This document shows, in pieces, positions 9,080 through 57,667 of a stretch of 64,000 nt of DNA (position 1 is the stretch's first letter; every line of letters starts with the position of its first letter). A program made the translations under genes and the position numbers. The notes beneath the pieces were generated by a model that did no database searches, was not told the origin of the DNA, and saw nothing but the letters and a program-made list of their open reading frames with translations. The stretch spans positions 3,071,511 to 3,135,510 of the forward strand of contig CP129490.1 in assembly GCA_030584085.1 (NCBI GenBank), written 5' to 3'. The stretch comes from Melioribacteraceae bacterium. Lineage in GTDB: Bacteria; Bacteroidota; Ignavibacteria; Ignavibacteriales; Melioribacteraceae.

Positions 9080-9457
9080 CTACCTTACTCTTTTTGTGAG
9101 TGAAGATGTTTAAGCAATTTTCTTACCAATCATGCAAATGGAGAATTAATAAAGTAATTTTTACCGTTTTTGTTATAATATTGGTTTTACAAATCAGACG
9201 CAAGAAAATTTTATTAGACCATCAGGAAATTTTCTCAATTATCCGGTAATATTTTCCGGTAAGAATTGCTAAGTTCGATTAAATGCGAATAAAAGAATTA
9301 GCGATTTTATACAGTACATTTAACCGCCGACATTTTTCGGGATTAAACTATTGTTCAGGAATTAAATTTAAGAGAGATGGTTTTAAATAATGATTAGAAG
9401 TAAAACCAATAGAGAGTTTCACCGCAGACGTAAAGTCTGCGGCTACTTAAAAACAAC
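9080..9457. other. 378-nt intergenic region upstream of the pilins
   Basis: No convincing ORF. It must hold the minus-strand promoter for the pilin/pilus operon, but no clear -24/-12 or TTTG/TAnnTTTG promoter was recognised. A direct repeat of CCGGTAA occurs at about 9241-9261 (two copies, 13-nt period), roughly 165 nt upstream of the first pilin. The part at 9324-9446 holds an inverted pair of REP-like sequences, annotated separately. Confidence 0.5.
9324..9446. repeat. Inverted REP-like pair (GTAG hairpin family)
   Basis: At 9422-9446, read on the minus strand, GTAG is followed by stem CCGCAGAC, a 5-nt loop and GTCTGCGG. At 9324-9340 on the plus strand is a degenerate partner, CCGCCGACATTT then TCGG. 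GTAG beside an imperfect hairpin is the signature of REP sequences served by RAYT proteins. The same hairpin, with GTAT, recurs at 15221-15245. It lies just downstream of the aspS stop, so it may also act as an mRNA 3' end. Confidence 0.6.
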
Positions 9458-14465: not shown

Positions 14466-14545
14466 AAATCCCCGGGATTTTCGGTTATAATATGATCGAC
14501 ATAAATTTCAGAGTGTCTTTTTTAATGGACAAATCCCGGGGATTT
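14466..14545. repeat. 80-bp REPIN-like element, copy E1
   Basis: Inverted ends AAATCCCCGGGATTT (14466-14480) and AAATCCCGGGGATTT (14531-14545) enclose a 50-nt spacer. The two ends are reverse complements. The ends recur at 55818-55897 and 56530-56610 around a RAYT gene with nearly identical spacing but unrelated spacers. It occupies the convergent glnA/ppa gap and may double as a bidirectional terminator, as a T-run follows. Confidence 0.75.
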
Positions 14546-14547
14546 TT

Positions 14548-15159
14548 TTATTTCATCCAAAATTCTTCTTCATAATCTTTTATTGCCGCTTCTACTACTT
14601 TAAACGCATGTGTAGAATCATAAATTTTTTCAACGTGTGTATGTTTTTCTTCACCCGGGACTTGTTTATAAGTTTCAAAGTAGTGATGCAATCTGTCTTG
14701 AAATGATTTTGGTAAATCGGCGACTTCGTTTACTTCGCTCCAAACATTATCGTTTATAAGTACTGCAATAATTTTATCGTCGGCTTCATCACCGTCAATC
14801 ATTTGAAGTCCACCGACAACCTTTGCACGAAGTATAACTTCCGATTTATTAATCGGGCGTTCACTTATTACACAGATATCTAACGGATCGCCATCAGCAC
14901 GAGCTGATTTCGGTGAAAGTTTATTTACACGTTCACCGCAAAATGTCTGAGGAATAAATCCATACAAAGTCGGCGGAGTTGATGATGTTCTATGCGGTCT
15001 ATCAACACGTAGATAACCCGTTACTTTATCGACTTCGTATTTTACTAAATCGAATGGTGTTATTTCTATATATGCGTTTACTATTTGCGGTGGTTTGGGT
15101 CCGGGATTCAATCCATGCCAAGGATGTGGACGCCAATTAAAGTAACTTTTTTCACTCAT
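14548..15159 (-). CDS. ppa: Inorganic pyrophosphatase, family I
   Basis: Hydrolyses pyrophosphate to phosphate, pulling biosynthetic reactions forward in the cytoplasm. The 203-residue product carries the family I signature: YGFIPQTFCGE, then ARADGDPLDICVISE with the metal-binding aspartates, and EADDKIIAVL. A GGAG ribosome site stands before the ATG at 15159. The gene is monocistronic: its 3' end meets glnA through the E1 element, and a REP-like pair lies in its upstream region. The residue pattern resembles the longer, eukaryote-like branch of the family rather than E. coli Ppa. Confidence 0.93.
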   Translation of the reverse strand: MSEKSYFNWRPHPWHGLNPGPKPPQIVNAYIEITPFDLVKYEVDKVTGYLRVDRPHRTSSTPPTLYGFIPQTFCGERVNKLSPKSARADGDPLDICVISERPINKSEVILRAKVVGGLQMIDGDEADDKIIAVLINDNVWSEVNEVADLPKSFQDRLHHYFETYKQVPGEEKHTHVEKIYDSTHAFKVVEAAIKDYEEEFWMK

Positions 15160-15220
15160 TAATTTTCTCCGTTGTTAGTCGAAAACTAATGAAAATTATC
15201 TGAAATTGTCGGAACTGATT

Positions 15221-15328
15221 GTATCCGCAGACTTTATGTCTGCGGTATTAAAATATACAAGAAATGTTATATTTTTGTGGAATTAGATCTTTCCTTTATA
15301 AAACACGCCGACAAATGTCGGCGGCTAC
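15221..15328. repeat. Inverted REP-like pair (GTAG hairpin family)
   Basis: Plus strand, 15221-15245: GTAT, stem CCGCAGAC, 5-nt loop, GTCTGCGG. Minus strand, 15328-15306: GTAG, then CCGCCGAC, ATTT and GTCGGCG. The first hairpin matches the 9422-9446 copy at all but two positions. Both minus-oriented units are preceded by TAA (TAAGTAG). The pair fills much of the 169-nt gap between ppa and the following secreted-protein gene, whose stop codon abuts the element. Confidence 0.65.
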
Positions 15329-54382: not shown

Positions 54383-55806
54383 TCGGAGCTTTAGCTAAAA
54401 CAAAAATTCTCGCAACAATTGGTCCGGCAACGGATTCAGAAGAACAACTAGCAAAATTAATTTATGTCGGTGTTGATGCATTTCGACTTAATTTCTCGCA
54501 TGGCAGTTATGATTACTTTGACAAAGTATTGAGTAAAATTCATAATGTTAGAACGGAAATGTCGTTACCGATTCCGGTACTTCAAGATTTACAAGGCCCA
54601 AAAATTCGTACTGGTGATTTAGCTGAACCTGAAATTGAGTTGCTAGCCGGAAAATCAATTGAAATTACTTCGGATGAAATTATCGGGACGAGTAATATGA
54701 TTTCAACTTCATACAAAGAATTACTTGAGGATGCGGAAATTGGAAATACAATTCTTATCGATGACGGTTTAATAAATCTTCAAATAGTGAAAAAGAAAAA
54801 TGATCATTTAGTTTGTGAAGTTATTGAAGGTGGCGTTTTAAAACCTCGAAAAGGTATGAATTTACCGGGAATGAATTTGAGTACTCCATCTTTGACTGAA
54901 AAAGATATCGAAGATCTAGTGTTCGGTTTAAATCACAAAATAAGTTATATCGCATTATCTTTTGTAAGGAAACCGGAAGATATTATACGACTAAAAGATT
55001 GGTTAAAAAGTAACAACAACGAAACTCCCGTAATTGCAAAAATTGAAAAAAAAGAAGCCGTCGATAATTTTTCGGATATATTAAAAGTTGCCGATGGAAT
55101 AATGGTTGCCCGCGGTGACCTCGGTGTCGAAATGCCCCCTCAAGATGTTCCGATAATTCAGAAGCAAATTATCCGCGAATGTAATTCTGTTGGCAAACTT
55201 GTTATAACCGCAACACAAATGTTCGAATCCATGGTGAACAATCCGGTCCCGACTAGAGCTGAAGCTTCCGATGTTGCAAATGCTGTTTGGGATGGAACGG
55301 ATGTGGTAATGTTAAGCGCCGAAACTTCAATAGGTAAATATCCCATTGAAGCTGTAAGAATTATGAATAATATTCTGCATAAAACTGAAGCCACAAGAAA
55401 TTTCAGATGTAATGCTCAATACTCTGTTCCGGAAAACTTAGCTGATAATCTTTTTGATTCAGTCGGACTTGCGGTTGCTAACATTGCTGAACAAGTAAAG
55501 GCAGCATGCATTGTTGTATTTACTAATTGTGGCAGAAAAGCTCGGGTAATTTCTAAATTTAAACCTGTCTCTCCTATTATCGCAATATCAAATAATTTCG
55601 ATACGCTTAATAATCTGAATCTCCATTGGGGAATTTTCCCATATTTCATGGAAGATTTTTCTGAGGAAGATGCTGCCATTGAAAAAGCTACAAGTATCAT
55701 TAAAGAAAAATCATTTGTAAAAAATGGAGATGTTGTTATTTTTACTTCCGGAGCACCTTATACAGAAAAAGGCAGAAAAAGCTGGTTGAGATTTGTTGTG
55801 ATTTAA
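54379..55806 (+). CDS. pyk: Pyruvate kinase
   Basis: Last step of glycolysis, phosphoenolpyruvate to pyruvate with ATP, 475 residues. Recognised: TKILATIGPATDS, VLQDLQGPKIRTGDL, IAKIEKKEAVDNF, DGIMVARGDLGVEMP and the C-terminal domain (VFTNCGRKARVISKFKP). The start is a GTG overlapping the stop of the Lon-like gene by 4 nt, and no better start lies nearby. Pyk produces the substrate of the aceE-aceF-lpd complex encoded elsewhere in the window. Confidence 0.94.
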   Translation: MIGALAKTKILATIGPATDSEEQLAKLIYVGVDAFRLNFSHGSYDYFDKVLSKIHNVRTEMSLPIPVLQDLQGPKIRTGDLAEPEIELLAGKSIEITSDEIIGTSNMISTSYKELLEDAEIGNTILIDDGLINLQIVKKKNDHLVCEVIEGGVLKPRKGMNLPGMNLSTPSLTEKDIEDLVFGLNHKISYIALSFVRKPEDIIRLKDWLKSNNNETPVIAKIEKKEAVDNFSDILKVADGIMVARGDLGVEMPPQDVPIIQKQIIRECNSVGKLVITATQMFESMVNNPVPTRAEASDVANAVWDGTDVVMLSAETSIGKYPIEAVRIMNNILHKTEATRNFRCNAQYSVPENLADNLFDSVGLAVANIAEQVKAACIVVFTNCGRKARVISKFKPVSPIIAISNNFDTLNNLNLHWGIFPYFMEDFSEEDAAIEKATSIIKEKSFVKNGDVVIFTSGAPYTEKGRKSWLRFVVI

Positions 55807-55817
55807 TTTCTTTGTAC

Positions 55818-55897
55818 AAATCCCCGGGATTTACCCGGTAATTTTGATAATTTCAAATAGTATCTAATTTATTCTATCCGGAAAATCCCGGGGATTT
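55818..55897. repeat. 80-bp REPIN-like element, copy E2
   Basis: AAATCCCCGGGATTT (55818-55832) and AAATCCCGGGGATTT (55883-55897) around a 50-nt spacer. It begins 11 nt after the pyk stop and ends 51 nt before the RAYT start. The ends are reverse complements and match those at E1 and E3; the spacer does not. Confidence 0.75.
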
Positions 55898-55948
55898 TTC
55901 TCATTTAATTTCCATTCCTCATAGATTGATAAATTCAAAGAGTCAAAA

Positions 55949-56509
55949 ATGCCGTACCGTGATACAAAATTTTTTAATGATTGTTATTATCATGTTTACA
56001 ATCGTGGCGTAAATCATTCTAATATATTTCTTGCAAAGCGGAACTATTATTTCTTCCTTGAAAAAGTAAACCAATATTTATCACCTTATACAGAAATTGT
56101 CGCTTACTGTCTAATGCCGAATCATTTCCATTTATTAATACTTGTTCAAAGAGAAGAAGAGGTTTTAACAGCATTAAAAAAATTATTTCTCAGTTATTCT
56201 AAATCGTTTAATAAAGAAACAAATAGAAGCGGACCTCTTTTTGAAGGAAGGTATAAATCAAAATTAGTACCGGATAATGATTATCTCTTACACTTAACAA
56301 GATACATTCATTTGAATCCGGTCAGAGCAAAGCTCGTTAGCGAACCTGATGAATGGAAGTTTTCAAGTTATACTGATTATATAAAGCCAAGTGAGATATC
56401 TTTTGTTAGTAAAAATATTATTTTAAAACAGGTCAAAGATTATCGATCTTTTGTAAAGAGTTATCAAGAATTTGATAAAGAGAAATTGGCTGAGTTATTA
56501 TTTGGTTGA
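55949..56509 (+). CDS. RAYT, REP-associated tyrosine transposase (Y1/HUH)
   Basis: 186 residues of the IS200/IS605-like Y1 transposase family, branch associated with REP elements. The HUH motif is NHFHLLI (His59 and His61). The conserved Tyr-containing helix is RYIHLNPVRA (Tyr about 119). RAYTs nick and rejoin single-stranded DNA at REP hairpins but are usually single-copy, domesticated genes. It lies between the E2 and E3 elements, both with the same ends, which is the usual arrangement for a cognate RAYT. No transposase-type terminal repeats of its own were seen. Confidence 0.9.
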   Translation: MPYRDTKFFNDCYYHVYNRGVNHSNIFLAKRNYYFFLEKVNQYLSPYTEIVAYCLMPNHFHLLILVQREEEVLTALKKLFLSYSKSFNKETNRSGPLFEGRYKSKLVPDNDYLLHLTRYIHLNPVRAKLVSEPDEWKFSSYTDYIKPSEISFVSKNIILKQVKDYRSFVKSYQEFDKEKLAELLFG

Positions 56510-56529
56510 GTAACTCGGGGAGTTTATGT

Positions 56530-56610
56530 AAATCCCCGGGATTAGTCTATTTAATTTAGTTAAGCAATGGTTTGGGATTTACGTCTTATTTTTGAAAATC
56601 CCGGGGATAC
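56530..56610. repeat. 81-bp REPIN-like element, copy E3
   Basis: AAATCCCCGGGATT (56530-56543) and AAATCCCGGGGAT (56596-56608), 81 bp in total with a 51-nt spacer unrelated to E1 and E2. It starts 21 nt after the RAYT stop and ends 6 nt before the next ATG, so it probably overlaps that gene's ribosome site. Confidence 0.72.
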
Positions 56611-56616
56611 ATTGAA

Positions 56617-57624
56617 ATGAAAGAAGCTAACTGGTGGGAAACTCAAGAAAACGGAAAAATTCTTTGCACACTTTGTCCGCGTTATTGCACAATTGGAGTT
56701 GGGCAAAAAGGGTTCTGTTTCATTCGAGAAAATATTGACGGAAAACTATATTCAACGGGATACGGAAGACCTACCGGTTTTGCTGTTGATCCGATTGAGA
56801 AAAAGCCACTGAGTCATTTTTATCCCGGGACTGATGTATTGAGTTTCGGGACAGCGGGTTGTAATCTTGGTTGCAAGTTCTGTCAGAACTGGACTATTAG
56901 TAAATCAAAATATGATGACCTTCATTCGCTTGAAGCATCACCTGAAGATGTAATCAAAATTGCGAAAAAATATAAAACTCCTTCGATAGCTTTTACCTAT
57001 AATGACCCGACAATCTTTGGTGAATATGTTATCGACATTTCAAAACTTGCTCGTGAGGAAGGGATAAATTCAGTCATGGTTACTGCGGGTTATATTGATA
57101 AAGAAGCTCGCAAAGATGTTTACAAATATATTGATGCGGCAAATGTAGATTTGAAAGCTTTCACGGAACAGTTTTATCACAAAATTACTTTCTCGCATCT
57201 CAATGATGTCCTCGATACTCTTTTTTGGCTTAAAAATGAAACAGATATCTGGTTTGAAATAACGACCCTGTTAATTCCAGATGAAAACGATTCCCCCGAA
57301 GAAATACAACAAATGTGCGATTGGATATTAGAAAACCTTGGAGATGAAATTCCACTTCACTTTACAGCATTTCATCCTGATTTTAAAATGTTGGATAAAA
57401 CAAGAACTCCGGCTTCAACTTTAAAAATGGCAAGAAACATAGCAATTAAGAGTGGGATAAAATATGTATATGTCGGCAACGTGCATAATTTAGATGGACA
57501 AACAACTTACTGCCCAAACTGCAATGAACCGCTTATTATTAGAGATTGGCATTCGGTCATCGATAATAAACTAAAATATGGTAAATGTTGGAAGTGTAAT
57601 AATCAAATTGCAGGAAAGTTCTAA
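56617..57624 (+). CDS. AmmeMemoRadiSam-type radical SAM protein
   Basis: 335 residues. Radical SAM cluster CNLGCKFC (Cys82, 86, 89). An N-terminal Cys-rich stretch (CTLCPRYC, then GFCFIREN) and a C-terminal zinc ribbon (CPNC, then CWKC) frame the core, as in the family named after AMMECR1, Memo and a radical SAM. The reaction is not established. Neither AMMECR1 nor Memo is nearby. The ATG is 6 nt from the end of the E3 element and no clear ribosome site remains between them. Confidence 0.88.
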   Translation: MKEANWWETQENGKILCTLCPRYCTIGVGQKGFCFIRENIDGKLYSTGYGRPTGFAVDPIEKKPLSHFYPGTDVLSFGTAGCNLGCKFCQNWTISKSKYDDLHSLEASPEDVIKIAKKYKTPSIAFTYNDPTIFGEYVIDISKLAREEGINSVMVTAGYIDKEARKDVYKYIDAANVDLKAFTEQFYHKITFSHLNDVLDTLFWLKNETDIWFEITTLLIPDENDSPEEIQQMCDWILENLGDEIPLHFTAFHPDFKMLDKTRTPASTLKMARNIAIKSGIKYVYVGNVHNLDGQTTYCPNCNEPLIIRDWHSVIDNKLKYGKCWKCNNQIAGKF

Positions 57625-57628
57625 TTAG

Positions 57629-57667
57629 AAAAACCCGGGATTTTGAAAATCCCGGATTTTTGTTTTT
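57629..57667 (+). terminator. Hairpin terminator of the radical SAM gene (E4-like half-element)
   Basis: A near-perfect 16-bp inverted repeat, 57629-57644 with 57646-57661, one mismatch, core CCCGGGATTTT. A T-rich tail follows. It begins 5 nt after the stop codon. The core sequence is that of the REPIN-like family ends collapsed without a spacer. Confidence 0.75.

Follow-up and report, generated by a model that had tools for sequence, protein, structure and literature searches.

Analysis of the window (the whole 64,000-nucleotide stretch of DNA) and of related genomes showed a family of elements of limited size, with arms more conserved than interiors, and a RAYT gene at the junction of two of them. 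Presence and absence of parts of this arrangement between genomes, one inversion, and RAYT-palindrome pairs elsewhere were also seen. A RAYT with its cognate REPIN-like elements is the best explanation and probably the right one, supported in the main because the family is dispersed and size-limited, the RAYT is genuine, and related RAYTs have palindromes of their own. The chief weakness of this reading is that element-bearing relatives lack this RAYT, whose role is a predicted one. The initial annotation had proposed a REPIN/RAYT pair; its dispersed, size-limited inverted-repeat elements around a genuine RAYT were recovered, while the copy number, the related interiors and the RAYT-less relatives depart from it.

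We infer that the RAYT binds and cuts the 15-bp arms and moved the copies. An HUH/Y1 transposase would recognise the AT-edged, GC-cored 15-bp hairpin arms and the adjoining (N)TC in single-stranded DNA, and would disperse non-autonomous 80-bp elements to intergenic spaces, often near stop codons. These elements have inverted arms at both ends, inner ends that differ and an interior confined in length. The RAYT gene itself may have been inserted at a two-element junction, or lost there in one lineage (G142) by arm-to-arm exchange. The genome that holds the window (G000; 3.74 Mb, one contig) was compared with three relatives of its genus, namely G140 (same species, 80% complete), G141, and G142 (99% complete).

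The RAYT gene and the elements beside it

The features mapped in the window were as follows:
14466..14545, no strand: E1, 80-bp element of the E2/E3 family, between convergent genes
55818..55897, no strand: E2, 80-bp element; left arm 55818-55832, interior of 50 nt, right arm 55883-55897
55883..56544, plus strand: RAYT-holding segment, limited by the inner arms of E2 and E3; a single arm instead in G142
55949..56509, plus strand: RAYT gene, 186 aa, intact open reading frame; HUH residues H59/H61 and catalytic-type Y119
56530..56610, no strand: E3, 81-bp element; right arm degenerate at its two outermost bases
57629..57661, no strand: short hairpin (similar stem, 3-nt loop), downstream of a radical-SAM gene

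E2 consists of AAATCCCCGGGATTT, 50 nt and AAATCCCGGGGATTT, with perfect 15-bp arms, and E3 of AAATCCCCGGGATTA, 51 nt and AAATCCCGGGGATAC, with arms 1 and 2 mismatches from the family arm. The arms of both elements read AAATCCCCGGGATT(T/A), with the inverted arm at the far end, and each arm is a near-palindrome about one central base. The initial annotation was right in the sequence and coordinates of E2, E3 and the intact RAYT gene between them and in spacers of 50-51 nt; the statement that one end is the reverse complement of the other is exact for E2 and only nearly so for E3. A 14-mer search allowing up to 2 mismatches gave 15 matches in the 64-kb window, with near-palindromic sites scored on both strands; the shuffle mean was 0.51, and 0 of 100 shuffles reached 15. 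The hairpin at 57629-57661 is probably a short relative of the E1-E3 family, or a terminator. A search of 55700-56800 for Rfam RNAs gave no credible match (best E 0.14, far below gathering).

On its sequence and modelled fold, the gene product is predicted to be a RAYT, an HUH/Y1 transposase of the TnpA-REP kind, in agreement with the initial annotation. It matched PF01797 with 33.4 bits (cut-off 23), and H59, H61 and Y119 were invariant in 18 sequences. The AlphaFold2 model had a mean pLDDT of 89.3, with low confidence for residues 175-183. Foldseek placed 4er8, a REP-associated tyrosine transposase bound to a REP hairpin, as the closest fold (E 1.7e-8), with IS608/ISDra2 behind (best 1.2e-4). 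A profile search also matched 4er8 (E 6.9e-10) and, as in Foldseek, put TnpA-REP before IS200 TnpA. Against NCBIfam NF047646 the RAYT scored 66 bits, below the cut-off of 80, which is a database threshold and not a biological trait; all 18 sequences matched this model at E 0.001. The motifs of the protein are NHFH, FE and YIHLNP, with FQ replacing FE in five close relatives, and by these motifs the protein resembles subclass 2.1 (TIRYT).

Copy number, size and ends of the element family

The arms of the family are 15 bp long, of the type AAAT- or AAAA-CCCCGGGATTT, mostly of the same type at both ends, and enclose an interior of 49-53 nt. Exact AATCCCCGGGAT occurred at 18 sites in G000 (reversed control 0), and the exact paired-arm pattern gave 7 forward matches (control 0). 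Long elements were listed from regions fetched around 15-mer matches with up to 2 mismatches, keeping arm pairs at a pitch of 60-72 with up to 4 mismatches over both arms. The list held 14 elements in G000, 17 in G142, at least 7 in G141 and 5 in G140, at least 43 in total; degenerate copies were missed because only pairs passing the mismatch and pitch filter were kept. About a dozen copies, 14 long ones in the case of G000, is a small number for REPs or REPINs. Dozens of mostly intergenic copies, polymorphic between strains, had been anticipated; the intergenic placement held (1 of 43 elements overlaps an ORF of at least 80 aa), the number did not, and copy polymorphism was seen between species and not within, the sample for the species being two genomes, one of them 80% complete.

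Whether the 60-72 filter makes the size look fixed was checked by scanning pitches of 15-139 in the same regions. Arm pairs with up to 4 mismatches were found at pitch 18 (9), 22 (1), 64-68 (43) and 133-138 (3), with none between, and long forms stood only at 64-68. The three pairs at 133-138 were taken for arms paired across neighbouring elements.

Of the 164 genomes available for the order, 3 had the exact paired pattern, and these belong to the genus of G000. A broader exact pattern searched in an 84,980-species collection gave 16 stretches, all in Melioribacter roseus, Ignavibacteria or Ignavibacteriales records, and exact arm pairs were found only in one genus among the 164 genomes and this collection. 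A phage origin of the elements was rejected, with 0 exact matches in viral contigs.

The elements have two unlike ends. On the inner side, 76 of 86 arms are followed by (N)TC, with the TC either adjoining the arm or one base away. With orthologs counted separately, 33 of the 43 elements combine an [AGC]TC end and a TTC/TC end; in the remaining 10 one end is unclassed, and no element has the same type twice. The first base past the arm is complementary to its counterpart at the other end at a frequency of 0.03 (37 elements), where 0.35 was expected (z -4.5). The TC-type pairing and the non-complementary first inner base therefore give the element two unlike ends and a direction. The ends lack GTAG/GGAG, as originally noted, and have the (N)TC in its stead. 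An interior hairpin kept by compensatory pairing was rejected, mirrored positions being complementary at 0.38 against 0.41 in shuffled halves.

The spacers had been called unrelated, which is correct for E2 and E3, whose interiors are not alike, and incorrect for the family, in which many interiors are related. Five G142 copies with GTCAGA-type starts have interior identities of 76-98%, and 98% is reached at non-orthologous G142 loci (e.g. C16:28033 and C36:20694). Most ortholog pairs had their best interior match in the same orientation. In 14 cross-species ortholog pairs the arms were 94.5% identical on average and the interiors 67.5%; the ends are therefore held or renewed while the interior drifts. 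The earlier description of a fixed size with conserved ends only was accurate as to the narrow pitch and the better-kept arms, and too strict as to interiors, which are often related, and as to the conserved (N)TC next to the arms. Two elements of G000 at 731399 and 734614 (L094 1900-1980 and 5115-5195), 3.2 kb apart, have identical interiors and similar right flanks. The 150-aa ORF between the G000 elements at 2469210 and 2469762 was considered as a transposase and rejected; by eye it is unlike one, and it was not among the Y1 matches.

The gene setting was counted with mechanical ORFs of at least 80 aa, orthologs being counted separately. The neighbouring ORFs are convergent for 20 of the 43 elements, tandem for 16 and divergent for 4, with 3 unclassed. 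That the elements are bidirectional transcription terminators, their stems alike by common origin or selection and any mobility ancient or absent, is quite improbable. Such a role would suit the convergent setting of 20 out of 40 classifiable copies, with both ORF ends no more than 10 nt away in 11 of them. It would also suit the consensus terminator scan of 55700-56800, where 3 terminator-like sites were found, all within E2 (shuffles 0.6), and the short hairpins described below at sites where G142 has a long element. It is opposed by the pitch of the long forms, the unlike inner ends, the near-identical interiors at unrelated loci, and the 4 of 40 classifiable copies between divergent genes, which represent two loci, one of them present in three genomes. 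The finding named in the initial annotation as refuting the REPIN/RAYT pair, namely occurrence only next to strong genes as terminators of variable spacing, or in no more than three copies, was not obtained, with 14 long copies at a confined pitch and two divergent loci.

The RAYT locus in relatives, inversion and short forms

In G142 the gap between pyk and the radical-SAM gene contains three arms and two interiors and no RAYT. The tandem elements (C41:151967-152114; L154 1968-2115) have one arm in common, with arm pitches of 67 and 66. By place and interior, the first is the ortholog of E3 and the second the ortholog of E2. The interiors of E3 and E2 resemble those of their orthologs with z of 4.0 and 4.3 (crossed pairs 1.9 and 1.2), and by interior the ortholog of E2 ranked 1 of 42 and that of E3 2 of 42. 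The RAYT of G000 therefore occupies the place of the common middle arm of G142. Either the RAYT arrived at a shared arm in G000, or G142 lost it by joining the two inner arms.

At the same site the matching contig of G141 starts, and G140 gave no match. In 19 other genomes of the family (those with a pyk match reaching at least position 1370 and a radical-SAM match starting on the same contig), the gap measured 36-324 bp in 17, 698 bp in G105 and 2,038 bp in G124, and no RAYT match was found inside it. A RAYT between pyk and the radical-SAM gene is lineage-specific, because 0 of these 19 genomes have a match there. The gap of G105 (C185 ~14750-15270; L295) has two small ORFs, which by eye presumably resemble HicB and HicA. 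The gap of G124 (C236; L302 268-2066) holds other ORFs, which by eye we take to resemble a DNA methyltransferase, a helix-turn-helix regulator and a broken restriction gene. Just past the radical-SAM gene of G124 there is a RAYT remnant without the HUH half, with AACCTTCGAGG hairpins on both sides. In G083, of another genus, the gap holds an element with AAAAGCCCAACTTTT arms (C98:29559-29652; L297), which is an independent arrival at the same spot. In several genera, this site seems to receive insertions.

G142 (99% complete, 17 long copies) and G140 (5) gave no match to this RAYT. G141, with at least 7 long copies, has two weaker RAYT matches (37% and 28% identity), and no family arms were found in their loci; for all three, gaps in the assemblies may be the cause. 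The 37% match was rejected as the mobiliser, its locus having no arm with up to 3 mismatches. The claim that a RAYT is flanked by its cognate family thus stood for the arrangement in G000 and for like arrangements with other arms in relatives, and is weakened by G140, G141 and G142, which carry elements without this RAYT.

The elements may have been moved by another agent, either a lost or unknown transposase or repeat recombination, with the RAYT merely inserted into a tandem element pair, and this is considered unlikely. The absence of a match in G142, the richest genome, and the lineage-specific presence of the RAYT at the pyk site favour another mobiliser. Against it, same-clade RAYTs in other genera are bracketed by their own palindromes, a second size-limited family surrounds a RAYT in genus g2, and no arm comes closer than 3 mismatches in the 3.3-kb locus of any of the four remaining Y1 genes of G000.

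Relative to its right flank, the element at G000 2715516 has opposite orientations in the two genomes of the species. It stands at the same place in G140, with an interior that exactly matches the G000 interior once reverse-complemented; the right flanks are 99.6% identical over 1,686 bp, and the left flanks match for ~41 bp beside the element (by eye). The G141 copy is oriented as in G000 when judged against a left flank common to G141 and G140, with an interior identity of 84% in inverted comparison. The other four G000-G140 element pairs were not inverted. The inversion could have come from hairpin template switching, or from excision and re-insertion. This element, and near-palindromic arms ~66 bp apart, would also fit paired binding sites or an invertible switch, served by a host DNA-binding protein or a site-specific recombinase unrelated to the RAYT. 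Such a system is highly improbable, since a promoter switch would hardly be expected between convergent gene ends, where half of the classifiable copies are found, and re-insertion or template switching can equally give the inversion.

Matching sites were searched for five of seven G142 loci; C14 and C15 had no clean answer. G141, which aligns with both flanks of the element at G142 C19:59452, lacks the element there. G000 carries short hairpins of similar stem at the places corresponding to G142 C34:34189 (matched by both flanks) and C26:39911 (by one flank), and short forms also occur elsewhere, e.g. at window positions 57629-57661; either the short or the long form may be the ancestral one. 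A more elaborate version of the RAYT reading, regarded as doubtful, is that this branch of RAYTs targets terminator-like hairpins, opens them into elements of set length (from pitch 18 to 64-68), spreads them along gene ends, and excises and re-inserts them in place with a flip. The arm sequence would arise anew from lineage to lineage, with no change in arm length, in element length or in the difference between the ends.

RAYT-palindrome pairs in other genera and known systems

The left and right flanks of RAYT loci of the order were compared (30 loci given, 4 without a motif hit, 26 used). The mean common identical stretch was 20.5 nt, against 9.5 between different loci. A proportion of the loci (6 of 26) share up to 11 nt, a length reached by 20% of control pairs, and among the longest common stretches, two (L060 and L063) are not plain palindromes. 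When nine RAYT loci were inspected by eye, seven had a like palindrome on both sides (G029, G035, G040, G082, G083, G113 and G125), and two had one on one side only (G114 and G134). The flanking palindrome of G035 occurred in exact form only twice, both times beside the RAYT.

A second family, AAAAGCCCAACTTTT...AAAAGTTGGGCTTTT, had 22 elements in 6 of 164 genomes and four genera. Its size was 92-97 bp in 21 elements and 88 bp in one, in a search that allowed 70-100. G083, whose RAYT is 48% identical to that of G000, has 12 copies, 3 of them around its RAYT, and G082 has 6 copies, some of which contain further arms inside. Different arms surround the RAYTs of different genera; the arm sequence therefore shifts with lineage while the architecture is kept, in at least two genera.

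Inverted repeats AACCTTCGAGG...CCTCGAAGGTT form a further RAYT-palindrome pair. They lie on both sides of the G124 RAYT remnant (L302 3240-3310 and 3650-3710), and similar AACCTTCAAGGTT stretches are common to both RAYT flanks in G086 and G068; repeats of this kind also adjoin two G142 elements (L141 ~2100-2250, and the right flank of C36:20694). A short hairpin, AAAAGCCCAACTT, was tried as a sequence tied to the 10 genomes with the closest RAYTs; 5 of the 9 genomes with the hairpin were among them (Fisher p 3e-5), and the association was given little weight, because the pattern had been picked from the RAYT flanks of those genomes.

The REPIN/RAYT paper of 2011 is reportedly by Bertels and Rainey, and the TIRtron paper of 2013 by Di Nocera and colleagues. 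In the former (PMC3116915, 2011), REPIN ends are inverted and the interior is less conserved with its length kept, at 71 bp between ends for GI compared with 64-68 here, and compensatory changes are reported in the interiors. The present elements are alike in having conserved inverted ends, a length-kept interior, mostly intergenic positions and a RAYT alongside. They differ from that account in having (N)TC on the inner side of the arms and no GTAG/GGAG, in having about a dozen copies and not hundreds, and in having interior halves without excess complementarity and first inner bases that differ between the ends. The importance of GTAG itself differs among tested RAYTs, according to PMC8266576. 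The TIRtron/TIRYT account (PMC3733652, 2013) likewise has a RAYT-like gene with flanking inverted repeats unrelated to GTAG REPs, and dispersed, moderately abundant repeats that are often dimers. Its GGGGWSAS motif, shared there by some TIRs only, is lacking here, where the arm is GGGGATTT, and, unlike TIRtrons as described there, the arms here end size-limited elements with an interior.

For TnpA-Y1 subclass 2.1, which includes 20 of 26 described TIRYTs, Quentin et al. 2018 (PMC6006769) report that no REP-like sequences were found, and give the motifs NHVH or NH[YF]H, W[EQ] or FQ, and YIELNP or Y[IV]HLNP. NHFH and YIHLNP of the present RAYT fit these motifs and FE nearly fits FQ/W[EQ], whereas its 186 aa differ from the median of 238 aa with a C-terminal HTH-like extension given in that paper. 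Bacteroidetes subclass 2.6 is similar in its atypical non-GTAG structures and different in having WQ and YIH[QN]NP, as reported in the same paper (PMC6006769). The system is a REPIN-like, TIRtron-like variant, because it would work like a RAYT/REPIN pair and is not a GTAG REP family.

The pairing of a RAYT with REPINs is of a known kind. No literature on this RAYT/element system was found by title and abstract start among open-licence papers, nor was a description found in them of its ends, its transposase branch or an element flipped in place. The movement of REP elements by RAYTs is unsettled, and a motif-similar subclass has been reported without REPs. Here the same pair of elements is seen at one locus with the RAYT and without it, and arm/protein pairs of like architecture differ between two genera; arm recognition, length limits, unlike ends and inversion are therefore testable on small single-stranded substrates.

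A CCGCAGACgTAAAGTCTGCGG-like palindrome occurs in inverted copies at window positions 9421-9446 and 15221-15246. Palindromes like it also adjoin the G142 elements at C15:28738 and C36:20694, and they are probably another REP-like family.
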